IMG/VR virus record: IMGVR_UViG_3300043409_000928
Location: 221,305 to 285,304 of that record
Source: a virus
Reading direction: 5' to 3' (one strand)
Length of the DNA: 64,000 bases
The notes beneath the pieces were generated by a model. The model was not told the DNA's origin, did not search any database, and worked only from the letters and a program-made list of their open reading frames with translations. Positions within the stretch are counted from its first letter, which is position 1. Every line of letters starts with the position of its first letter. Of the stretch, positions 2,783 to 59,898 are shown one piece after another. The position numbers were made by a program, and so were the translations under genes.

Positions 2783-5700
2783 CTAATTAACCAATAATTT
2801 GGCTATCTCATTGCGATACTTAGCCAGCATGATTCGAGTTTTGTTTGCTTTTTCAACTGCACCAGGTGTAGCGGCTTTATCAAACTTGCTGGAATTGATT
2901 ACTTTGTCTAATTTTTCTGCGTATACACGGGAGATTTTCTGCATAAAGTCTTGACTGTTGGCAATGGAATCCAGTGCTCCTGTGCCAAATAGTTCAGCAG
3001 TTTCAAAGTCTGTGGCCATGGCATGAATTGTTTTGACAATGTCACTCAATCGCTGTTCGTCTTTGAGCCCACCGTGTTGCGCCAAGTTGCCCGGCACAAC
3101 GGGCTTGGTGCCGTGTGCCAATTGATAGTAATAGGAATACATGTCCCCGCCCCAATTGTGCGGATCAATGCTTACTGTGCTCAATTGCGTGTCTTTGCTT
3201 TGACGGAAGCTGACTGGTTGCCCGCCACGTGTCTTAACTTGTACGCCTTGTATGCCAAAGCTCATGTTTAATACTTCAGCAACGCTACTCATTAGGCTGG
3301 TGCTGATAACACCCTTGACACGATATTCTGGTGCTAGTGCTCGTGCCCAATCGGCATGTTCGTTATAGGTGTAAATTAAATCAACCTGTATGGGACCTGC
3401 GCTGGTATCCATGATAACATTGGTACCGTTGCTGGTATTGTATTCAGTGTGGCTGTCTGCAAACGACTTTACAGCATCTGCATACTCACTGGTGCGTCGG
3501 GCGGCACCTACACCCTCTCTGCTGTGAATATAGCACACAACATCTACATCACCGTATTCACGAGTAGGATCTGCTGTTAGGTCACGCTTGTAATAGGTAC
3601 CGGACCCAACAGGCTTGCCCATTCTAATTTCAACATCCAGTTCATTCTCAGCTTGCCAAGCATTAAATTCTCTTTCAAAGTGATCCAGCACATTGATTGC
3701 TTCTTCGATCACATGCGGAGTAATCACAGTATTTTGGGTGGCGGCACTGGCCCAGCCACCTTCTGTGATTGATTCGGTCTTCGGAGCCTGTTGTTCTTTA
3801 TACCATTCCCAAGCTTGATTGTTTATTTCTCTGCCAACTGTTCTTCTATAGTAACCTATAAGGCCCACTAGTTTTTGAGTTTCATCCCATACGGCTGAAG
3901 CGTCTTTACCAAACCACGGCTTGAAATCATCACTCTGCGCCCATTCTTTACAATGCTGTCTAAGTTTACTACCATCTGGATCATATGCTTGCCATGCTCT
4001 ACTGCCGGCCAACTCTACATCCAAGTTATCAAACAGGGTTTGTTCAATCAAGGCAGGTGTAATTACTCCTGATTCTTTTTTGTTGTCGATAGTCCGGAGT
4101 TGTTTGATAACTCTTGGATCTAATACTACACCCTGCGTTGGTTCATTGTAGGCAATCCAACCGTGGCCAGGGTCGAACACACTGGTAAAGCCCAAGTCTC
4201 TAAGCACCTTGTTCCAGCGAACAATATTGGTTTCATCACTCTTGCCTAATCTGCTTAAACAATCGTAGATGAACCAGTATGGTGTACCATCGAATTCATC
4301 TTCTTCAGCTGCCTGTTGCATTATTTCTTCTGAACAATACTGACTTAATGCTTGTTTTAATTTGGCACTATCAACTTGTGTTTCTTTTGTCATTTCACCT
4401 GAACGGTCATATTGAAACAACTGGATGTAGGGCATGTCTTCGCCCCATGGTAGTTTTTTACCACTGCGTGCCATGTCTACCGCATAGCCTAAAGGATAAA
4501 AGTAAATGCCTTTAGGAGTATCTTCACTAATACCTACTTGCGGGTTGATACCTAGCTTGGGTTCTGCTGTCATACTGATAGCCCAATTCTTAATGTCGCC
4601 CAAGGTCTTAGCAACAGCCTGCAACTCTTTCATACCTGACGCTGGCCGTGTATTTTGATCTGGATTAGCTCTTGCTTCTGGCAACTGTGCTGATTCATTT
4701 AGTGCAGAATCTGCAAACCAAGGGTCTATGATTACCAGCTGACCATTCTTTCTTTGCATTACATTTTCTGTATGCAAGTCCCAGCCAAACTTGTTTATCC
4801 TACCTGCCTTGTACAGTATCTGCATAACACCATACAATGTATGAAGCTCTTTGAACTTTGAATTATCATCTGCAAATGTCAAGTCTTGCCAGTACTTGGC
4901 CAGGTTGGCGGCCTGTCTTGGATTGTACTCCGTCCAGGTATCAGCCAACCCCAGTGCATGGTCAACTGCGTCCCAGGATTCATCGCCGGCTACAAAATCA
5001 CTAAAGAACCAGACCACACCTTCATTGAATGAATTTTTCTTGATAGGACTCAATCGTTCCATGTCAATTTGTGTGTACTCTCGGTCCAGTACGCTGATTT
5101 TATTATGTTCATTGATCACTGGCAAGCATTCCAAGTTCTGATGTGCCAGGCAGAATTCATAAAACTTGTTGAATACTTGTTCGGCTTGACTGCCAGGATC
5201 TGGCATTAATATTTTAATAATGTGACCTTTGTTTTTGGCCCACACAGTTGAATCGGCACCTGAGCCTACCTGCTTGTAACCCAATGCTGTAAATTCTTTT
5301 TCAATTTGGTCAGCATGTGCTGTGCCTGTTTCTGCTTCCGCCACACCTTGTGGGTTGCCTAATCTCCTAACAGGAATTTTATATTGTTGTATCAGGCTGT
5401 CAATCTCTGGCGGAATGTCGGCAGGCAATACAATTTCTTTAATTTTCCAATTGTCAACCAACACTTCGTGATGGGTTGACGTATCCATACTTAAAGTGGG
5501 ATCAATTTGCCCTGGTCGGCTAACATATTTTTGTTGTCCTCGTTGTCCTGCAGTCATTTTATATTGATCTGACCCCAAATCTGCACGCCCACCAATTGTA
5601 ATATGACCGTCGAGTACAATACCTACGGTTGGATTAGATCCGCCGCCCCACCTATTTTTTCCTAAAGATTCAGCGTTTGGTGCTAGGTAGGCGCTTAGTT

Positions 5701-18283: not shown

Positions 18284-18764
18284 GTTGCTTTCCTTTGTGA
18301 GATTTGGTACGTTTGGCTGTCTTTTTACCATGTCTTCTGACTTTCTTTGGATGTGCTCTACCAAACCGTACCTTAATTATTTTTCCAGTGTCCGAATCCC
18401 TAATGTACAAGTAGAATTTTTTGCTACCTTTGTAATGATAGGGCTTTCCTAACACAACTTCTTTACCTTGATATTCAGCTTCTTTAATTTGTTCTTGCCC
18501 ATCTACAGGTGCGGCAGTTGGGAAAAACACCGCCAACTGCTTTCGCATTGTATCGGTTTGAACATCTACAGTAAGACTTGCACTCCATCTTGGATCTTTG
18601 GCTTCTTGTGAATTTCTAGCAATATACCCACTGGATTCATCTAGCATTTCAACTACTAAATCCTGCCCGTTGGCTTCGATTACTCTACCATATGTTTTAA
18701 CACCTGGTGCAATGAGTTCGATTACATCGCCTACAGTTGGGGAATCTAACTCCCAGATCTTCAT
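18276..18764 (-). CDS. Putative head-associated protein with basic C-terminus
   Basis: 162 residues. An N-terminal beta-barrel-like part (GDVIELIAPGVKTYGRVIEANG, here described as 5-26) is joined through IKE/A (95/96) to a C-terminal domain GKEVVLGKPYHYKGSKKFYLYI. That domain resembles a C-terminal unit of marine T4-like phage structural proteins, and it ends in a very basic tail (KKVRRHGKKTAKRTKSHKGK). GGAGG lies 6 nt before the ATG, inside a hairpin that also contains a late-type motif. Confidence 0.6.
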   Translation of the reverse strand: MKIWELDSPTVGDVIELIAPGVKTYGRVIEANGQDLVVEMLDESSGYIARNSQEAKDPRWSASLTVDVQTDTMRKQLAVFFPTAAPVDGQEQIKEAEYQGKEVVLGKPYHYKGSKKFYLYIRDSDTGKIIKVRFGRAHPKKVRRHGKKTAKRTKSHKGKQHG

Positions 18765-18765
18765 A

Positions 18766-18797
18766 AAAAACCTCCACAGTATTTAGCAGAGGCTTTT
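18766..18797 (-). promoter_or_regulatory. Terminator-like hairpin enclosing late motif and Shine-Dalgarno
   Basis: Stem 18766-18774 with 18789-18797 (9 bp including one G-U), 14-nt loop, then T6 directly before the ATG at 18764. GCTAAATA (18780-18787) is in the loop. The 3' arm contains GGAGG at perfect spacing. Read-through RNA should terminate or hide the ribosome site, while RNA started in the loop lacks the 5' arm. Confidence 0.6.
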
Positions 18798-27587: not shown

Positions 27588-27986
27588 TTATTCAATTCTT
27601 TGTAGTGCAATATAGATACTATAAGTTGCACTGGTTGCGGATCCAATTTTACAGCTCATCGTAACTGTATTGGCATTCAAGGTCAATACAATTGCACCAT
27701 TGAAACCTTCTTCAAATGTATCTTCAATCTTAGTTATGCCAGATCCAACAGTGATGGTTCCACGCAATTGTTTAGTAACTCTGTTGCCTAAGTTGTCTGT
27801 ACCAAATAATTTTAACTCATAAAATTCTGTTCCTGCCACTGATAGTTGATTGCCATTACGATCCAGTGCGTTTGAATCAGCGCCGGCACATACAGCACCA
27901 AACACCATTTGTCTTACACTGACTGCACCTTCGCCAATGCTAAATTCACTTGAGGTTGTACCTGCTATGTTGTTATATGTTTTCAT
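27588..27986 (-). CDS. Small tail-associated structural protein
   Basis: 132 residues, beta-rich, Gly/Thr/Ala-rich (FSIGEGAVSVRQMVFGAV, NANTVTMSCKIGSATSATYS). The family is not recognised, but composition and place within the fibre operon suggest a virion protein. It overlaps the next gene by 1 nt. Confidence 0.5.
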   Translation of the reverse strand: MKTYNNIAGTTSSEFSIGEGAVSVRQMVFGAVCAGADSNALDRNGNQLSVAGTEFYELKLFGTDNLGNRVTKQLRGTITVGSGITKIEDTFEEGFNGAIVLTLNANTVTMSCKIGSATSATYSIYIALQRIE

Positions 27987-29971
27987 TATATGTATGTTAC
28001 CTCAACTCTTACCTGTCCAGTTGCACTATTACTAGGAATGTCAACAACAATATCTTTTCTAGCAGAAGTCACCAAGTCACTTTCAATTGAATATGTGCCT
28101 GTTTTATCAGACCCGTGTAAACTAAACTGCCAAACTGTATCGCTTCCAACATTTACAGCAAAGTCTGGAGCATCTACTAGAGCTTGCAATACTGTTACAC
28201 TTACATTTAAAACTCGACGATCTTCAGAGATAGTACCAATTGTAGTGGTTGTGCCTGGCAATGAAACTGTTTCTTTGATTGTTTTTGCATCGACTGCTAC
28301 ACTTCGTTCACCACCAACTTTGGTCCACGCAGATCCATCATATGTAAATGTGGCCCATTCGCCATTGCCATCATTGATGACATAGCACTGGTCACCAACC
28401 AAGGCATTTAATGCATCGCGGGCTACTATGTTTGCAACAACCGCAGTACCGCTTGATCTGATACCTTGCTCAATATTTAGACCCAGTGCATAGCGTCCGT
28501 TTTGTCCACTCAATACACCTGCCGTGTCTAAGAACGAACCAGCAAAGTCTCTGATAGTTAATGGGCCACCATCTACTCGAATTAAACGTAGCGCACTTGT
28601 TGTTGTATTTGCGGCTGTACTTAAAGGCAAGCTTGACAAAGAACTAGCACCAGCAAAATTATTGCTGTTGGCATCTGCTGTGACATTTACAATAGTAATT
28701 GCACCACCAGCATTGTGTCTTAGTTTAATATCACTGCCATTTACCAGGCTGGCAACAATGTCAGGAATCTTTGCGGCATTGATATCTGCTACCATGTCGT
28801 TTTGATCAGCAACAACCGGATCGCCATAAGCGGCACTACCACTGGTGGTTGTTGTAAAGTTAACAACGACTCCGTTAATGCTTGCACTGAACGGAGTATA
28901 GCCAGCAATAATACCATAAGCACTGCCTTGTCCGGCAATGTCACTGAATACTTCAGTGGCCGCGCCAACTTTTACTGCTGTAATTTTATGTGTAGGAGTA
29001 TCTACATTGATTAATGCCACTGCTTCGTCTACACTGTATGTACCTGTACCGCTGTACAGCGTAACCTGTGTTCTATTAATTTCAACAATGTCGCCATCTG
29101 TACCAACTGGGTCAATACCAGTACCGGTTGTTGATGTAGTAATAGCATCAGCAACCTTCATGTAGATAGGACGTCGACTGTTATCGTTGGTTGTTAAATC
29201 GCCCGAGCCATCCAAGCTGGGATATAGGTAATCACCTACTGCTCCTGGCAAACCTGGCACAAAGTCAACAATGCCGTTGGCTGGCCGCAGAATGAATTGA
29301 TCAGGACCTGGACCTGGATGAACCACAGTACCAAGGAATTTGCTGATGTTGTTGGAATTACTTAAAGAAAATGTACCTGCTTCAATACAAACTGCATCAC
29401 CTTGTTCAAAGCCATGATTAGTTTTTTCTAACAAGTAATTTGTCAAGGGGTTCATATACTGGAAGCGACTCATTACGTTGGTAAAGAAGTCTGTGGCCGC
29501 TTCACCTGGCAACGGGTCCAACATTGGAAAACCTAGTTCATTAATTTGAAAGAAGATGACAGGACCCGGAGTACCAAATAAACCAAAACCAGCAGGATCT
29601 CTAAATGTATTGTAACGCAGTCTATCTTCTACCACTGCTACCACTTCACTATTGGTCTTGGAAAGAACACTGATAATTTGTAAAACTTTACCGTCGCTGG
29701 CACCAGCAACAAAATCGCCTACTTCAATATCTTGTGCATCAAATTTAAATGGAGTTCTTGTTAAGTTACTACCATGCGTCTTTTCTGATACAGTAAAAGA
29801 AACTTCCCAGCGATAGGATTTGGGATTAAGACCACCGCTCCAATAAGGATCGTCAGCACCATTTGCATAGGGCCAAAGACTCAATGCTGTCACCGAATCG
29901 GCTGTGCCAGAAAGTACTTTGGCCGGCTTGTTTAATCCAATGAAGCTGGTTTTCCAAGCATTGATAGTCAT
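27986..29971 (-). CDS. Large tail structural / fibre protein
   Basis: 661 residues, beta-rich and Thr/Ser/Gly/Asp-rich without signal or membrane segments. Features include YRWEVSFTVSEKTHG, GDFVAGASDGKVLQI and a late unit DQCYVINDGNGEWATFTYDG typical of phage fibre modules that read out parameters. It lies between the collagen-like fibre and the 132-residue gene. Probably tail fibre or baseplate-proximal protein. Confidence 0.6.
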   Translation of the reverse strand: MTINAWKTSFIGLNKPAKVLSGTADSVTALSLWPYANGADDPYWSGGLNPKSYRWEVSFTVSEKTHGSNLTRTPFKFDAQDIEVGDFVAGASDGKVLQIISVLSKTNSEVVAVVEDRLRYNTFRDPAGFGLFGTPGPVIFFQINELGFPMLDPLPGEAATDFFTNVMSRFQYMNPLTNYLLEKTNHGFEQGDAVCIEAGTFSLSNSNNISKFLGTVVHPGPGPDQFILRPANGIVDFVPGLPGAVGDYLYPSLDGSGDLTTNDNSRRPIYMKVADAITTSTTGTGIDPVGTDGDIVEINRTQVTLYSGTGTYSVDEAVALINVDTPTHKITAVKVGAATEVFSDIAGQGSAYGIIAGYTPFSASINGVVVNFTTTTSGSAAYGDPVVADQNDMVADINAAKIPDIVASLVNGSDIKLRHNAGGAITIVNVTADANSNNFAGASSLSSLPLSTAANTTTSALRLIRVDGGPLTIRDFAGSFLDTAGVLSGQNGRYALGLNIEQGIRSSGTAVVANIVARDALNALVGDQCYVINDGNGEWATFTYDGSAWTKVGGERSVAVDAKTIKETVSLPGTTTTIGTISEDRRVLNVSVTVLQALVDAPDFAVNVGSDTVWQFSLHGSDKTGTYSIESDLVTSARKDIVVDIPSNSATGQVRVEVTYI

Positions 29972-29980
29972 GTTGTTCCT

Positions 29981-32900
29981 TTATACACTACTTAATAAAA
30001 ATTGTACTACACAGTGAGTTGTTTGTCCCACACCAGCACTGGCACCAGTGATAGCTTTAGTCAAACCAATTGTCATTGTGTTAACTGCTGGATCAAATGC
30101 ACTGAATGCACTTGGACTACCACTTGTGCCGCCACCTGCAAGTGTTCTACCTGCAGTAAATGTGCTTGAAACTGCTGTCAACACATAGGAGTTACTTGCT
30201 CGTTGATAAGAGTATACTTGAGTATTCAATGGAGCACATACACTGCCTGTAAATGTAAATGTAACTGTGGCAACAGTAGAAGTTGCAGTAGCAATAACAG
30301 CACTGATGCCGCCATTTAATACGCTGACACTTGACAAGTTACCAGACGCATCGTATTCGACCTGTACGCTAGCACGGAATACACCTGAGCTTGAGCCGGT
30401 GCCGCCGGATCCACCGCTTACTGTACTTGGTGCCCATGAACTACCATTCCAAACAAGTGCTTGACCTGTTGTTGGTGTTGTGGCCGCCACGTCGGCAAAT
30501 TGATTTAAATTACTTTGTCCTAGACGTGTATCAAAACGTGATGACGTATAATATAAGTTTGAGCTACCTTCAGTGACATTGTCTGTGGTAGCATTTAAAC
30601 TAATTGTACCTGTACCGCTGTTGTAGCTGATACCAGTACCAGCGCCAAATGCTCCACGAGCCAGCGTGTCAGTAAAGTATTTGTTAATGCTACCTTGAGT
30701 TAAATTGTCAGTGGTCTTGGTACCTAGTCTTGTATCCCAACGAGCATTTGTATAATATTGATTGGCTGACCCTTCGCTTACGCTGTCAGTGTTCAGAGTT
30801 ACTGCGCCAGTTAAGCCGTTGACACTGGCAACAGCGCCACTGCCGCCACTAACAGTGCTAGGAGTCCAAGCACTACCTGTCCAAGTCAATACTTGTCCGT
30901 TAGTAGGAGCCGCCGTAATTGTGTCAACGTCTGATAGTGCGTTGATACTACTTGCCGCAATACGTACATCAGCACGAGCATCAGCTCGAGTATTTGTAAA
31001 GAACAAGTTACTACCTTCTGTAATGTAACTTGTATTGGCACGATATTTAATTTGACCAGTGACATCATCATAACTGATCAAGCTAGTGATATTACTATCA
31101 CTGATAGAACTTAGTGCTGATCTTGCTCTGGCATCTGTGTAGTATAATCTAGTGCCTTCAGTAACATCACTAGATGTCACTCCACTCAACGCTGTAGTAA
31201 CACTAACATTAGCACTACCATCAAAACTAACCAAACCAGTTACTTTACCAGTTAAGGTAAGTGTTCTAGCAGTTGTCCATTTATTTGCCTTGTTGGCTAA
31301 ATCAACTTCTAAATCATAGCCAGATTGTGTTGTATTTTGTACACCATAAATCTGTACACTACCAGCCTTGCCGTTGACTGTATAACTTGTACCAGTATCG
31401 CCCTTGGCTCCTTGTGGGATTACAAAGTTCAATGTGGCCGCAGAACTTGTGCCGGCATTTGTAATACTTGCGCTACTGCCAGCGGCACCTGTTGTTACAC
31501 TACCCACTGCAATAGTACCCGCATTACCTTGCGTACCTTGATCACCCTGTGGTCCACGTACATCACCGGCATTTAATACAGTAGAGTCAGATAGTGTAAT
31601 GTTTAAATCATTACCACTTACTGCGGCATTGGTAACAGACACGCCAGCATTTCCTGTATTACCTTTGTCACCTTTTGGTCCAACAATGCTACCAGTATCA
31701 ATTGTACTGGCATCGTCTAATGTAAGTATTAAATTACCATCACCGTTGACTACTGCGCTGAAAACGCCGACACCAGTGTCACCTTTTGGAATAGTAAAGT
31801 TTAATAGTGCCGCACTGGCAGTACCAGTATTTGTAATAACTACGTCTGTACCTGCGGCACCAGTTGCCACAGCATTGATAGTAATGGTACCAGCATCGCC
31901 AGCATCGCCTTTGTCACCCTGTGTACCAACTACACTACCAGCATCAACTGTCGAGCTGTCTGTTTTGGTAATAATTAAATTGCCGCTGCCATTGACAGTG
32001 GCTGAACTGACACCAACACCGGCATTACCTGTGTCGCCCTTAGCACCCTGCGGGATACTAAAGTTTAATGTTACTGCACTGGCAGTACCAGAATTTGCCA
32101 CAGTTGCCGCTGAACCGGCCGCCCCTGTTGTTACACTACCCACTGCAATAGTTGCCGCTGTACCTGTGTCACCTTTGGTACCAACTACGCTACCAGCGTT
32201 GATTGTTGTATTATCTTGCTTTGTTAATATTAATTCGCCACTGCCGTTTATTGCGGCAGTTTTAATACCTGATACATTACCAGCATCAACAATGCTGTTG
32301 TCTGTTAATGTTAATTGTAAACGACCTAACAATGTTACTGTGGCGGCGCTGATACTTAGACCTGCTGAGCCTGCGGCACCAGCCGCACCTGTATCACCTG
32401 TATCACCTTTGGCTCCACTATTAGCAACTGGTACAAAATTTGTACCATCAAAACCTAGGATTTGCCCTGCACTAATTGCACTTACGTTTACACCAGAAAG
32501 TGAATTTAGTGTTACTTGACTTGCAACTGCATTGGCAAATGTAGGATTGACTGATGAAGATACATTGGCTGTAAATTGGTCATCAACATATTTCTTGGTT
32601 GCGGCTTGTAAATCAGCAGTAGGAGCACCTGACAATGTCAATGCACCTGTCATTGTGCCACCTGACAAGTTTACCTTGCCAGCCAGAGTACTTGTAAGGT
32701 CTGTTGCAAAACTTGGATTGCTGGCAATTGCCGCGGCCAACTCGTTTAGTGTGTTTAACGCACCAGGAGCTCCATTGATTAAATTATCTACTTGGCCTGT
32801 AACATAAGTTTGTGTGGCATATCCGTTGTTGTTTAGGTATGTGCCTACATCACTTAATGTTACGCCACCGCCTGTGCCACCTACAGAACTGATAACTCCA

Positions 32901-33475
32901 TTGGTAATAGTAATCGTTGAACCGTCAACTTTGACACCACCCAGTACTGAAGTTGATGCAGTTGGTAATGTGTATGCAGAAGGAATAGTAGGCTTGTTTG
33001 TTAAATCATTGTAGTTGCCACTAAAATTACCACTGCCGCCAGTGATACTGACATTTGCTGTGCCATCAAGAACTGTAACAGTTGCGCCACTTACAAAGTT
33101 AATGCTGGTAAAATTACCACGGTTTGCGGTGTTCTCGTAAATTGAAACACTGTCAAGTCCACCTGTAATAGTGGCAATGTTGTCTTGTACTGCAACATTT
33201 GGCCCAACAAAATTCAATACAGTAGCAGTTCCACGGGCTGTACCATTTTCTTTAACAGCAATACTTCCCGACCCGCCACTGTTGCCACTGCCACCAGCTA
33301 GACTGATCATCAGTTTGCCAGTCACATCATCGTATGATGTTTGTAGTCCGATGTTAATATCGGTGCCTACTTCAATTTGTTCGGCTACAATGTCTTGAAC
33401 ATCTTCTTCTGTGAGGCCTCCGCCACCACCTGTTCCGCCTTGTAGTTGTCCTCCTGAAGATGCATTAATTGCCAT
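29981..33475 (-). CDS. Collagen-like modular tail fibre
   Basis: 1164 residues. N-terminal 150 residues are Gly-rich (GGTGGGGGLTEEDV). YNDLTNKPTIPSAY (155-168) and a HEPN-like 'LINGAPGALNTLNELAAAI' fibre unit follow. Residues 350-700 alternate collagen-like Gly-x-Asp/Gln runs (GAKGDTGDTGAAG, GTQGDKGDAGDAG, GPKGDKGNTG) with a repeated GSVTTGAAGS...GTxSAxxLNFxIPQG block. The last third has TEGTRLYYTDARARSALS units. Collagen-like triplets imply a trimeric fibre. 'HEPN-like' is used only for shape of the helix, not homology. Confidence 0.78.
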   Translation of the reverse strand: MAINASSGGQLQGGTGGGGGLTEEDVQDIVAEQIEVGTDINIGLQTSYDDVTGKLMISLAGGSGNSGGSGSIAVKENGTARGTATVLNFVGPNVAVQDNIATITGGLDSVSIYENTANRGNFTSINFVSGATVTVLDGTANVSITGGSGNFSGNYNDLTNKPTIPSAYTLPTASTSVLGGVKVDGSTITITNGVISSVGGTGGGVTLSDVGTYLNNNGYATQTYVTGQVDNLINGAPGALNTLNELAAAIASNPSFATDLTSTLAGKVNLSGGTMTGALTLSGAPTADLQAATKKYVDDQFTANVSSSVNPTFANAVASQVTLNSLSGVNVSAISAGQILGFDGTNFVPVANSGAKGDTGDTGAAGAAGSAGLSISAATVTLLGRLQLTLTDNSIVDAGNVSGIKTAAINGSGELILTKQDNTTINAGSVVGTKGDTGTAATIAVGSVTTGAAGSAATVANSGTASAVTLNFSIPQGAKGDTGNAGVGVSSATVNGSGNLIITKTDSSTVDAGSVVGTQGDKGDAGDAGTITINAVATGAAGTDVVITNTGTASAALLNFTIPKGDTGVGVFSAVVNGDGNLILTLDDASTIDTGSIVGPKGDKGNTGNAGVSVTNAAVSGNDLNITLSDSTVLNAGDVRGPQGDQGTQGNAGTIAVGSVTTGAAGSSASITNAGTSSAATLNFVIPQGAKGDTGTSYTVNGKAGSVQIYGVQNTTQSGYDLEVDLANKANKWTTARTLTLTGKVTGLVSFDGSANVSVTTALSGVTSSDVTEGTRLYYTDARARSALSSISDSNITSLISYDDVTGQIKYRANTSYITEGSNLFFTNTRADARADVRIAASSINALSDVDTITAAPTNGQVLTWTGSAWTPSTVSGGSGAVASVNGLTGAVTLNTDSVSEGSANQYYTNARWDTRLGTKTTDNLTQGSINKYFTDTLARGAFGAGTGISYNSGTGTISLNATTDNVTEGSSNLYYTSSRFDTRLGQSNLNQFADVAATTPTTGQALVWNGSSWAPSTVSGGSGGTGSSSGVFRASVQVEYDASGNLSSVSVLNGGISAVIATATSTVATVTFTFTGSVCAPLNTQVYSYQRASNSYVLTAVSSTFTAGRTLAGGGTSGSPSAFSAFDPAVNTMTIGLTKAITGASAGVGQTTHCVVQFLLSSV

Positions 33476-33498: not shown

Positions 33499-33867
33499 TT
33501 ATAAGCTTAGAACTACTCGTTCGCAGGTGCCTAATGCCGAAATTGGCTGACCTAAATGGCTTCTCTGAATCTTTGCTCTTAAGTAAACAAAGTTTCCTAC
33601 CAAGTTAAATGTTTCTATTTTTGATTCCGCACTTTCTACATTGAAGTAGCCTGTCCCGTTTCCTAATCCTATAGGAAACCAGTCATTTTCGCTTGGGTTA
33701 TCACTGATACTGGCTTCTATGAACAGCTTACCTTTAAAGTTTTTTAAGTAAAATGCAACAGTATGTAAACCGTCTGCAAATCCATAATATCCGTCAGCAC
33801 GGGTTGCAAGCCCAACTTGATCCAAGTTGCCATTTGCCACCATCATGTTTGAGTTACGCATACTCAT
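33499..33867 (-). CDS. Tail-associated beta-sandwich protein
   Basis: 122 residues, MSMRNSNMMVANGNLDQVG start, then TVAFYLKNFKGKLFIEASIS and FNLVGNFVYLRAKIQRSH. The pattern matches small carbohydrate-binding-like proteins encoded beside fibre genes in marine T4-like phages. It follows the 54-residue gene by 3 nt. Confidence 0.55.
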   Translation of the reverse strand: MSMRNSNMMVANGNLDQVGLATRADGYYGFADGLHTVAFYLKNFKGKLFIEASISDNPSENDWFPIGLGNGTGYFNVESAESKIETFNLVGNFVYLRAKIQRSHLGQPISALGTCERVVLSL

Positions 33868-33870
33868 GGG

Positions 33871-34035
33871 TTATTCCTTAATAATTTCCACAATTGCACC
33901 ATCGCCAACCAACTGTTGAGCCACTGCTTCTAGGTTAGAAACGGTTTCTTCGCTCAAAATTGGACTTGCAACTTCACCTTCTTTGTGTAGTTTGCTGACT
34001 TTGATTACAAGTAGTTCTTCGTGTATTTTTGCCAT
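33871..34035 (-). CDS. Small conserved fibre-operon protein, 54 residues
   Basis: MAKIHEELLVIKVSKLHKEG, then an acidic helix ending AIVEIIKE. Similar short proteins occur in front of fibre genes in T4-like phages. It is the first gene of the fibre operon. Its GGAGG ribosome site, 7 nt before ATG, lies in the 3' arm of a terminator-like hairpin. Confidence 0.7.
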   Translation of the reverse strand: MAKIHEELLVIKVSKLHKEGEVASPILSEETVSNLEAVAQQLVGDGAIVEIIKE

Positions 34036-34036
34036 T

Positions 34037-34069
34037 AAAAAGCCTCCATCACTATTTAGCGTGGAGGCT
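34037..34069 (-). promoter_or_regulatory. Terminator hairpin enclosing late motif and Shine-Dalgarno
   Basis: Perfect 8-bp stem AGCCTCCA / TGGAGGCT (34041-34048, 34062-34069), 13-nt loop holding GCTAAATA (34053-34060), then T5 before the ATG at 34035. On the minus strand the 3' arm is the ribosome site GGAGG. It ends the 34718 gene and starts the fibre operon in 33 nt. Confidence 0.7.
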
Positions 34070-34088: not shown

Positions 34089-34718
34089 TTACGGTTTTCT
34101 TATGCGTTCAAAGCGTTCTATACAGTCGCCAACTTGCAATCTAAGCATGGCGGCATCATCAGCAGAACGAAGATATAAATGCATTGGTTGTCCCCACGCA
34201 TTTAACTTGGGGGCTGACTCTTTTGTAATAATATCTTTAAGTACGCCTGCACAATGCCAGTCATTTGGATCCATTGCACGAACGGCTGTTTTAAAACTGT
34301 CAACTTTAGTGCTCTTGAACTCACTGGAGTATAGGATTCTAGCACGGATTGAATACTTGCCGTACCATGGTTTGCTACGGATAATGTCTGAGGAATGCAA
34401 CATCAAAAGCTCTTTGGCTCTATCGTTTTCTGGTTTCCAAATTTCTAGTATTTTATGGGACCAAGTTTCTAACAGTTCCTCAAGTTCTTCTTCAGTATTT
34501 AAAAACAAACTTAAATTATTTTCTTTACGCATTCCTGCGTTTGAAAACTTTTCTTTACACCATTTACTCAAAAGTCGAAATTCTTGAACTCGGGCCGCTC
34601 TGGAACTTGGGTCAGTGCGCCAATTATTGCTTCTACATTGGCTATTGGGAGTAATTTCAATGACTGCTTTTATTGGCCACTGTTTCCAAAATAACCGTTG
34701 TGTGTTATGTATTTTCAT
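34089..34718 (-). CDS. Hypothetical phage protein
   Basis: 209 residues, helical middle (TEEELEELLETWSHKILEIW), basic N-terminus with RTDPSSRAARVQEF, and C-terminal DDAAMLRLQVGDCIERFERI. No domain recognised. It starts 1 nt after the ClpA stop and is therefore in the ClpA-to-IF-1 operon. Confidence 0.55.
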   Translation of the reverse strand: MKIHNTQRLFWKQWPIKAVIEITPNSQCRSNNWRTDPSSRAARVQEFRLLSKWCKEKFSNAGMRKENNLSLFLNTEEELEELLETWSHKILEIWKPENDRAKELLMLHSSDIIRSKPWYGKYSIRARILYSSEFKSTKVDSFKTAVRAMDPNDWHCAGVLKDIITKESAPKLNAWGQPMHLYLRSADDAAMLRLQVGDCIERFERIRKP

Positions 34719-38248: not shown

Positions 38249-38533
38249 TTACTTGACCAGGTCAAAAGCCTTCTTTTGTTCAATGTACCATTCATTCCAT
38301 GCATCTAGCTTTGCTGAGCATTCGTGATACTTTGAATAGTTTGAATTGACAATGGTCAGTAGTTCACTCAATTTGACTTCGGGCTTACCAATAATTGTCA
38401 ATGGGCCACACTCCTTTGATATTTCTGCAGGTACTTCGGGAAAATGTCTGCTCACTGGTGTAGTAGTTGAGCAAGCACCCAACATGGACAGCAATGCTGT
38501 GGATAACATTATTTTGGTAAGTATTCTCGCCAT
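38249..38533 (-). CDS. Outer-membrane spanin lipoprotein (Rz1-like)
   Basis: 94 residues. Signal peptide with lipobox MLGAC makes it a lipoprotein. The mature part (PAEISKEC...LLTIVNSNYSKYHECSAKLDAWNEWY) matches the Rz1-like o-spanin pattern common in large phages. It overlaps the i-spanin gene by 25 nt in another frame, the usual spanin arrangement. Spanins fuse inner and outer membranes in the last step of lysis; endolysin and holin are not in view. Confidence 0.75.
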   Translation of the reverse strand: MARILTKIMLSTALLSMLGACSTTTPVSRHFPEVPAEISKECGPLTIIGKPEVKLSELLTIVNSNYSKYHECSAKLDAWNEWYIEQKKAFDLVK

Positions 38534-39042
38534 GATTTCTTAGGTTTAGGTTCTGCGGCCTTGTCGATGTCGCTTGGATTAATTTTTGTACCTGGAGTTA
38601 CTATTGTATCGCCCAGTGCTAGATTTTGTGCTGATGCATCGTGCGCGGTAATAACCGCTGTTGGAATTTTACAAGTGGCATCCGCAGATTTTACTTCTCT
38701 ATCTATGTATTGTACTACAGTATCGCCTTTTTCTTTTATTACTCGTGTTTTAGTTACTACTTTAGTAACAATCTGAGTATTGACTTGTGCAGACTTGGCT
38801 TCAGCCTGTGCCACTTTAATTTCAAGTTCGGCTACTCGAGCTTTCCATTCGGCATCTTTGGCAATGCCGCCTTCATACCATACGCCTACTATTGTTAGTA
38901 AAATACCGGCTACTTGTATGGGCAATGAATACTTGTTGATAACCGGTATCATGCGTAATGCCCAACCAGCCAAGAGGGCCAGCACACCTACAATTAAGAT
39001 TAGGTGAAAAACAGCATCAGGTAACCAGTTCAGTATCCACAT
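38509..39042 (-). CDS. Inner-membrane spanin (Rz-like)
   Basis: 177 residues. Two hydrophobic segments (about 10-30 and 40-58) are followed by a coiled coil (AEWKARVAELEIKVAQAEAK) and a periplasmic tail with CKIPTAVITAHDASAQN, a motif often seen in phage Rz-like proteins. With the overlapping lipoprotein it forms a two-component spanin. It lies downstream of IF-1 by 7 nt. Confidence 0.72.
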   Translation of the reverse strand: MWILNWLPDAVFHLILIVGVLALLAGWALRMIPVINKYSLPIQVAGILLTIVGVWYEGGIAKDAEWKARVAELEIKVAQAEAKSAQVNTQIVTKVVTKTRVIKEKGDTVVQYIDREVKSADATCKIPTAVITAHDASAQNLALGDTIVTPGTKINPSDIDKAAEPKPKKSWREYLPK

Positions 39043-39273: not shown

Positions 39274-39762
39274 TTAATACTTAGTTAAATTCTTCATTCT
39301 TGTATAATATTCCCTGCTTTCGGGCGGCAATGCATAAAGCTGTGGGTCTTGTATGATTCTAGCAGAAAGTTCACCAATTGTCAAGTCTGCCCGTTTACCA
39401 TCCATACCAACAAACTTCCATTGTTGTGAGCCTGTTGCATGTTCAACATCCTCAACAATAGTCAGTATTTTTTCACAAACTCCTGGTAACCTTTTTAGTT
39501 CAATGTATACATGAAATTTACCATCTTTATCGCTGGCATCACTTACTTCAACATCGTCAATGCCTGCACCAGACCATTCTAAATAGGCACCTAAATCTTT
39601 GGCTGAAGTGTCTGTGCTTGCTTTGAAACAGACTACTATTGTATCTGCTTCTGCGCCAAGCTTTGGCTTATAGCGGTCAATCTCAATCAGCGGATTAATT
39701 GTATCCTGTAAGTCGCCTGCCCGAAGGCTTTCTTTAAGCTGGTACTTGTGGTGCTTGATCAT
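39274..39762 (-). CDS. Conserved T4-like phage protein of unknown function
   Basis: 162 residues from the ATG at 39762. LKESLRAGDLQDTINPLIEIDRYKPKLG (near the start) and VYIELKRLPGVCEKILTIVEDVE recall a conserved protein of marine T4-like phages. The start overlaps the upstream gene by 29 nt. Possibly structural. Confidence 0.6.
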   Translation of the reverse strand: MIKHHKYQLKESLRAGDLQDTINPLIEIDRYKPKLGAEADTIVVCFKASTDTSAKDLGAYLEWSGAGIDDVEVSDASDKDGKFHVYIELKRLPGVCEKILTIVEDVEHATGSQQWKFVGMDGKRADLTIGELSARIIQDPQLYALPPESREYYTRMKNLTKY

Positions 39763-40297
39763 CAGTTGGATTCTGTGTAGTATTAGCGTCTTCGCTATTG
39801 GTAGAGAGGCCCTGTTCACCATCTAGTTCTTCGCCATATGCTTCATCAACGCTGTCATAGTCAACATCGTCTGTGTCTTTGATTTCTTCACTAACATCAA
39901 GCAGTTGTTTTGGAATACGCAATGTAACCAACCACACAGACTTTTTAACTGTGCGTGGTACTCGCTCTCCTTTGGAGTTGGTTACAATATCTTCTGGGTT
40001 CTCTACTTTGGCAAAGGTATCTAATATATCCTTGCCAAATTTAACTTTACAGCCATTTTTTACCAAACGCATTGCGGCGTCTGGATTGGGCATCATCTTT
40101 GCAGGATACATCAGTGTTAATTCTACCCAATGGCGCTCTACAAATGGCCCGTCTACAATTTCACCCCTAATCCAGTTTTCATAGGCGTACACATCCATGC
40201 GATCAAGGATACGATCAATTTCTATCAATGTGTCAATAACATTGGGACTAGTGTGTGCTCTATCTAGATTTTTATAAATTAAGTCTTGTGTTGGCAT
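39734..40297 (-). CDS. Conserved phage protein with acidic tail
   Basis: 187 residues. A folded N-terminal part (YAYENWIRGEIVDGPFVERHW, VELTLMYPAKMMPNPDAA) resembles a conserved T4-like family. The last 45 residues are disordered and acidic (DDVDYDSVDEAYGEELDGEQ). It heads the 40.3-to-34 kb operon, with a late-type motif before it and no clear ribosome site. Confidence 0.6.
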   Translation of the reverse strand: MPTQDLIYKNLDRAHTSPNVIDTLIEIDRILDRMDVYAYENWIRGEIVDGPFVERHWVELTLMYPAKMMPNPDAAMRLVKNGCKVKFGKDILDTFAKVENPEDIVTNSKGERVPRTVKKSVWLVTLRIPKQLLDVSEEIKDTDDVDYDSVDEAYGEELDGEQGLSTNSEDANTTQNPTDDQAPQVPA

Positions 40298-40304
40298 AGT
40301 CAGA

Positions 40305-40312
40305 TATTTAGC
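40305..40312 (-). promoter_or_regulatory. Late-type promoter motif GCTAAATA
   Basis: GCTAAATATCTGAC on the minus strand ends a few bases before the ATG at 40297. It would start the operon running to ClpA. Confidence 0.5.
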
Positions 40313-59040: not shown

Positions 59041-59898
59041 TTAAGCATTGATAAACTCTATTGTTAAATCAACGTCGTGATCAATATTGGCACGCCACAT
59101 TAACCGCTCTTCACCTTCTTTTAGGTTTGGGGCGGTTCTTCTATGTACAAAAGGCCAGTTGTCATACAGTACAATGTCGTTTGGTTGCCAACGCATTTCA
59201 TATACACAATCCTTAACCTCTGACATTGCTTCCATTAATTCTTCTAAAATACCTGTGCCTCTGCTGTTGCCCAACGAGTCTTTGGTATCAAGGATCCAAC
59301 TATTTTTAATGCCATGATAGTTACAGCGGGGACTCCATTTGCCTGTGATAGGATGCTGTTTCATTGCACTAGTTTCAACAACATCTCGACCCGGGTGGTG
59401 CCAGTTTTGTTGGAGGATAGTTCTTGATTCCCAACGCTTACGCAGGATAGGATGCACATGATAATAGGCTTCTTCCATATCTAACCAATAGGTAAATCCT
59501 GCTTCTGGATTTGGGACTGTTTTCATGTAGATGCAACGGTGAGGAAAATTGATACCAGCAACTCGATTAGCAATATCTGCATGCCATGGCATTTTATAAT
59601 CAACCAAACGCTTACTCAGTTTGTTGCTCATCCATGTAATGTATCGCATTTGGCCAGATTCGGGATCTGGGACTTCTCGCCAACGCTCAGTGCTTTTAAT
59701 GTATTCTTCTCGGTCCCACGGATTGCCCCATAATGCAAGAAATTTCCAATAGGTCAATTGATCCCAATCCGGAGCATGGAACACCAGCATCTTTCGCTGA
59801 TATAATATTTTTCTAAGTTCGCGTACATCCTGCTGAAGCAAGTCGGAGATGTCGGTGAATTCAGTACCCCAGTGTGTATAAATGTCTTTATATTGCAT
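59041..59898 (-). CDS. TauD/TfdA-family 2OG dioxygenase
   Basis: 285 residues. MPWHADIANRVAG gives the HxD pair and DNWPFVHRRT the distal His, with RANIDHDVDL near the end as for TauD relatives. Full length for the family. It would hydroxylate a small substrate such as a sulfonate or amino acid derivative. It follows a short unknown gene. Confidence 0.82.
   Translation of the reverse strand: MQYKDIYTHWGTEFTDISDLLQQDVRELRKILYQRKMLVFHAPDWDQLTYWKFLALWGNPWDREEYIKSTERWREVPDPESGQMRYITWMSNKLSKRLVDYKMPWHADIANRVAGINFPHRCIYMKTVPNPEAGFTYWLDMEEAYYHVHPILRKRWESRTILQQNWHHPGRDVVETSAMKQHPITGKWSPRCNYHGIKNSWILDTKDSLGNSRGTGILEELMEAMSEVKDCVYEMRWQPNDIVLYDNWPFVHRRTAPNLKEGEERLMWRANIDHDVDLTIEFINA

Follow-up and report, generated by a model that had tools for sequence, protein, structure and literature searches.

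The window (the whole stretch of DNA analysed, 64,000 nucleotides) is the final 64 kb of a 285,304-bp IMG/VR virus record. The whole analysis was sequence-based, and start codons were assigned by a simple rule. A fibre operon is encoded on the minus strand, and a hairpin is located directly before its first gene (Table 1). The run of genes upstream of the hairpin comprises two virion proteins, spanin-like genes, dnaJ, def, clpA and the 209-aa gene; its first gene encodes a virion protein (39734-40297). An overlapping spanin-like pair was found in this clpA operon at window positions 38249-39042 (PHROG Rz-like spanin).

Table 1. Features of the fibre operon, the hairpin and related sites (window coordinates).
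Feature	Position	Strand	Basis or remark
TAAATA ahead of the upstream run, 13 nt from its first gene	40305..40310	-	same spacing in G001-G004
209-aa gene adjoining the hairpin upstream	34089..34718	-	kept there in relatives
Hairpin 5' arm AGCCTCCA	34062..34069	-	sequence, fold; arms pair in all 13 homologues
TAAATA core (GCTAAATA) in the loop	34053..34058	-	T4-type late -10 element, Aeh1-like CTAAATA form; start-upstream enrichment, gp55 homologue (PMC1524935)
Predicted late +1, on or 1 base before the first G of GGAGG	34047..34048	-	predicted from the T4 -13 to -6 rule and in-genome calibration
3' arm TGGAGGCT including SD GGAGG (34047-34043)	34041..34048	-	sequence, fold, accessibility
T5 following the stem as in an intrinsic terminator, between SD and ATG	34037..34041	-	sequence
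54-aa gene, predicted to be translated from the nested SD	33871..34035	-	no match in PHROG or Pfam
122-aa gene, second in the operon	33499..33867	-	match to a virion structural PHROG
1164-aa tail-fibre-like gene, third in the operon	29981..33475	-	matches to tail fibre and tail PHROGs
661-aa gene, fourth in the operon, no assigned function	27986..29971	-	ORF list
Second nested element GCCTCTGCTAAATACTGTGGAGGTTTTTT before the 162-aa gene at 18764	18764..18795	-	related copies in G001, G002

On the minus strand, the element reads AGCCTCCA-CGC-TAAATA-GTGA-TGGAGGCTTTTTAATG and is located 20 nt past the stop of the 209-aa gene (full sequence AGCCTCCACGCTAAATAGTGATGGAGGCTTTTTAATG). Within about 35 nt it holds the core of a T4-type late promoter and a ribosome site (Shine-Dalgarno sequence, SD), together with a stem that resembles a terminator. 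The GGAGG of the SD is separated by seven bases from the ATG of the 54-aa gene (at 34035). In the RNA fold, the stem consists of 13 pairs with -25.4 kcal/mol (z = -4.9), and 0 of 200 shuffles were equally good. An earlier note had described the nesting of terminator, late promoter and SD at this site, with coordinates that were correct to within a base. The stem is longer than given there because CGCT and AGTG pair too, and the hairpin does not directly end clpA, the last gene before it being the 209-aa ORF. The nesting itself was borne out by the shuffles and by 13 homologues: a stem of 7 or more perfect pairs that encloses TAAATA and is followed by a T-rich tail was found once in the window and in 0 of 150 dinucleotide shuffles. 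A chance origin of the hairpin was ruled out by the shuffles and the conservation. The element has a single occurrence in the whole 285,304-bp record. No Rfam families were detected in the window, and the 45-nt element gave no match in a comparison with named phages.

T4 late promoters have the form TATAAATA at -13 to -6, and the Aeh1 form is CTAAATA (PMC1524935; PMC2988020). A late sigma factor of the gp55 type is encoded at record positions 126496-127515 (phrog_12791, 6e-90; phrog_234, 5e-24). The phage also has a clamp-loader gene, by which its nearest cultured relatives are the PA5oct-type Pseudomonas jumbo phages (52.6% identity). Genome-wide, no hexamer was more enriched than TAAATA in the stretch 13-60 nt ahead of starts that have an SD (7.8-fold), with 26 copies in sense and 6 in reverse orientation. 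A simple enrichment of TAAATA in the window was ruled out, with 29 seen against 53 expected. At 20 of 134 TAAATA sites, an ATG that opens a reading frame of 60 codons or more was located 10-11 nt from the start of the motif; about 1 such site was expected, and the reversed motif (TATTTA), used as control, gave 0. According to the T4 rule, this spacing (TAAATA-N4/5-ATG) places the +1 on or beside the AUG, so that about 20 genes look leaderless, and these genes calibrate the predicted position of the late start. At the focal site and in 12 homologues, the gap between TAAATA and GGAGG is 4-5 nt, and the predicted late RNA would therefore begin on the SD. The gp55 homologue and the enrichment of TAAATA at promoter positions agree with the late-promoter reading of the earlier note and support TAAATA in the loop as a putative gp55-type late promoter core.

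The predicted mRNAs of the roughly 20 genes with TAAATA-N4/5-ATG leave no room for an SD leader, and these are apparently leaderless late genes. In G000 coordinates they are located at 4491+, 7756+, 14740+, 3720-, 34528-, 65260-, 83863-, 119927+, 127556+, 133706+, 145910+, 164899+, 172901-, 172202-, 168295-, 164868-, 187409-, 214309-, 211747- and 281212-. The last corresponds to window positions 59044-59898, and its TAAATA-ATG spacing is kept in G001 and G002. Some of the genes encode virion or baseplate proteins. Little or none of this spacing was found in T4, Aeh1, Syn9 and PA5oct.

TAAATA sits 3' of the 5' arm, and an RNA starting at the predicted +1 would not contain the 5' strand. The consequence for the SD was calculated for the focal site and 11 other homologues. 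In these thermodynamic predictions, which do not model co-transcriptional folding, the unpaired fraction of the SD was 0.00 in the read-through RNA of all 12; with the predicted late start it rose to 0.5-0.87. The proposal that the SD is hidden in read-through RNA and freed in late-start RNA thus held in silico, with pairing retained through register shifts. RNA had also been expected to start in or after the loop; the predicted late RNA does lack the 5' arm, and its start falls on the SD, where the loop ends on its 3' side, rather than within the loop. Promoter activity, the exact start, termination and the translational block at this hairpin are inferred.

Strong burial of the SD as a general rule for late genes was ruled out, since most late starts in the focal genome are open: the SD was closed (0.02 or less) at 7 of its late-promoter starts and at 0.31 or more at 23. 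In T4 and Aeh1, late SDs are buried about twice as often as controls (0.32 versus 0.145 and 0.28 versus 0.127, respectively). None of the Syn9 late starts was below an SD accessibility of 0.1, and burial in PA5oct was at the control level.

Among the relatives collected for the 122-aa and 54-aa genes, 13 distinct sequences, the focal one counted, keep the element. The 5' arm is located 2, 3, 4 or 5 nt before TAAATA, and the upper stem has been rebuilt between homologues (CGCT/AGTG, GCT/AGC, AAG/CTT, GC/GC). In L024, a G-C pair is replaced by A-T with both sides changed. Despite the register shifts of the 5' arm, pairing with GGAGG is kept in all 13 sequences; TAAATA and its spacing to GGAGG are invariant, and the flanks shift. 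Native hairpin halves folded better than swapped halves, 0 of 20,000 permutations being as good, a count that is not an independent-sample probability for these mutually related homologues.

A GC-rich stem followed by a U-tract, as in intrinsic terminators, is present at the focal site and in 10 of the 13 homologues in all. L020, L021 and L025 keep the stem, promoter and SD, but their stem is followed by T3 only in place of a U-tract. Termination is therefore the dispensable and least conserved function, and its addition to the T4-like scheme, as put forward in the earlier note, applies to 10 of the 13 sequences. The three homologues also bear on the idea that the hairpin serves in RNA processing or stabilises the 3' end, the cleaved RNA then being translated. 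A stable GC-rich stem close to a gene end would suit such a role, but the stem persists in them without a U-tract, and the fixed spacing between promoter and SD and the kept pairing of the SD are left unexplained; processing is hence very improbable.

At the same clpA-122-aa junction, PA5oct has TAAATA and no hairpin. The promoter may therefore predate the hairpin at this junction. Among distant homologues of the 54-aa gene without the element, L449 and L450 are near-leaderless, L443 has no nearby TAAATA, and L447 and L448 have weak pairing only. Upstream of the 54-aa homologue in L038, L041, L043 and L045, mini-hairpins of the form TAAATACTC...GAGTAT were seen, with a 5' arm that overlaps the promoter end. 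The predicted start would again split the hairpin holding the SD, and the release of the SD is weaker.

Viral contigs were scanned for TAAATA-N2-8-GGAGG-N-T5 without prior bias, which gave at least 120 matches. CCTCC was present within 14 nt upstream in 39 of the 120 matches listed; an ATG followed directly in 38 of these 39, versus 35 of the 81 without the CCTCC arm. In the reverse scan, hairpins that join terminator and SD but have no TAAATA proved common among viral contigs (98 such loops, several with TTCG). That half of the design is therefore ordinary, and the promoter inside is not. Such hairpins speak for a plain terminator, its 3' arm doubling as SD for compactness and the TAAATA in the loop being due to chance or irrelevant. 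We consider this unlikely at the focal site, where TAAATA and its 4-5-nt spacing stay fixed among shifting flanks, where the operon would be left with no visible promoter, and in a genome that has only two T-tailed GGAGG stems of the focal kind, both with TAAATA. In the scan, the terminator-SD hairpin loops of L273, L331, L349, L352 and L354 share CTACATAC or ATACATAC and contain no TAAATA; these loops are possibly the promoter of another phage group in the same design.

A cyanophage form of the element was found in 26 cyanophage records by similarity and was read directly in ACG-2014e, Syn1, S-WAM2 and S-RSM4. In these four phages it follows gp43-uvsX-gp41-mazG on the same strand and precedes a gene without an assigned function; MazG and thioredoxin families are located directly upstream of the cyanophage element. 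The Kyanoviridae element after mazG (ACG-2014e, Syn1, S-RSM4, S-WAM2, S-CAM4, S-RIM44) has the part order of the focal one, CCTCC..TAAATA..GGAGG-T6-ATG, but differs in its TAAATA-GGAGG gap of 7-8 nt and in its downstream families (phrog_1462 and others). No description of it was found in the open-licence literature. The predicted late RNA of the cyanophage copies frees the SD partly (0.31-0.54). S-H9-2 keeps CTAAATA, and the hairpin is absent.

Leaders that sequester the SD are known from T4 late genes (e, soc, 49; I-TevI, I-TevII, segB) and Aeh1 mobE (PMC3014915, PMC2988022). As predicted for the focal site, the long upstream RNA of these genes pairs the SD, and a late promoter is so placed that late RNA is made without the 5' strand. 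The focal element differs in that its promoter core is placed in the loop of a terminator-like stem, its U-tract lies between SD and ATG, and its late RNA would begin on the SD. An immediate U-tract was seen at none of the surveyed T4 late starts whose SD is buried. Tandem arrangements of terminator and late promoter in T4 and Aeh1 likewise couple upstream termination to the late promoter of the next gene; there the terminator precedes the promoter and contains no SD, whereas the focal hairpin holds all three. In pieces of T4 and Aeh1 (L361, L365, L367, L363, L372), terminators also adjoined late promoters, and single hairpins were shared by divergent late promoters. The CTAAATA late promoters of Aeh1 (PMC1524935) have the same core as the focal one, with C before TAAATA, although Aeh1 is a distant phage and the focal phage is nearest to the PA5oct-type jumbo phages. 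The class of mechanism is thus already known (T4 e, 49, I-TevI); for the nested-terminator form, with a promoter inside a terminator and a start on the SD, no description was found in the open-licence literature.

The logic of T4 e and I-TevI (PMC3014915, PMC2988022) would make the hairpin a gate between early and late expression, with early or middle RNA blocked and late RNA translated. This version fits the cyanophage copies better, because those come after the replication operon (gp43-uvsX-gp41-mazG) in the same orientation. At the focal site the blocked RNA need not be early, since the upstream run contains virion and spanin-like genes and begins with a conserved late promoter. TAAATA is located exactly 13 nt before the ATG of the virion gene (40297-40310) in five phages, which predicts a 2-nt leader. 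The upstream run therefore opens with its own conserved TAAATA, and read-through RNA can itself be late. With this spacing kept in four relatives, the description of the upstream RNA as early in the earlier note is unsupported as stated; the RNA arriving at the hairpin would often be late rather than early. For the focal operon, an early/late gate is a tentative second reading that we hold to be less probable than not.

The conserved late promoter and the spanin-like genes of the upstream run favour an insulation of one late operon from another. The hairpin is probably an insulated late promoter, in which it would isolate the fibre operon from upstream transcription. RNA polymerase coming from the upstream operon would copy both arms, and the hairpin would form; it would end most incoming transcripts where the U-tract is present and keep the SD of the fibre operon paired in any read-through RNA. 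A late polymerase of the gp55 type would use GCTAAATA in the loop and start about 5 nt downstream on GGAGG. With this start, late RNA is proposed never to have the 5' arm, and its SD would be open. The fibre operon would thus be made only from its own late promoter, regardless of upstream transcription.

About as likely as not is a broader claim, that T4-type phages whose hosts are unrelated (PA5oct-like jumbo phages and marine cyanophages) reuse as a module one hairpin with the three roles of terminator, late promoter and ribosome site conditional on the start site, which makes a late operon independent of upstream transcription; the late mRNA would begin on the SD, in a phage that also has apparently leaderless mRNAs for about 20 late genes. 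Sites of this kind would be labelled by terminator and promoter predictors as one or the other. The design would be testable at once in isolated cyanophages and would provide a small part for genetic engineering. If the claim is true, phages build insulated promoters in one piece, in which stop, start and ribosome site are merged and the gene is expressed from its own promoter only.
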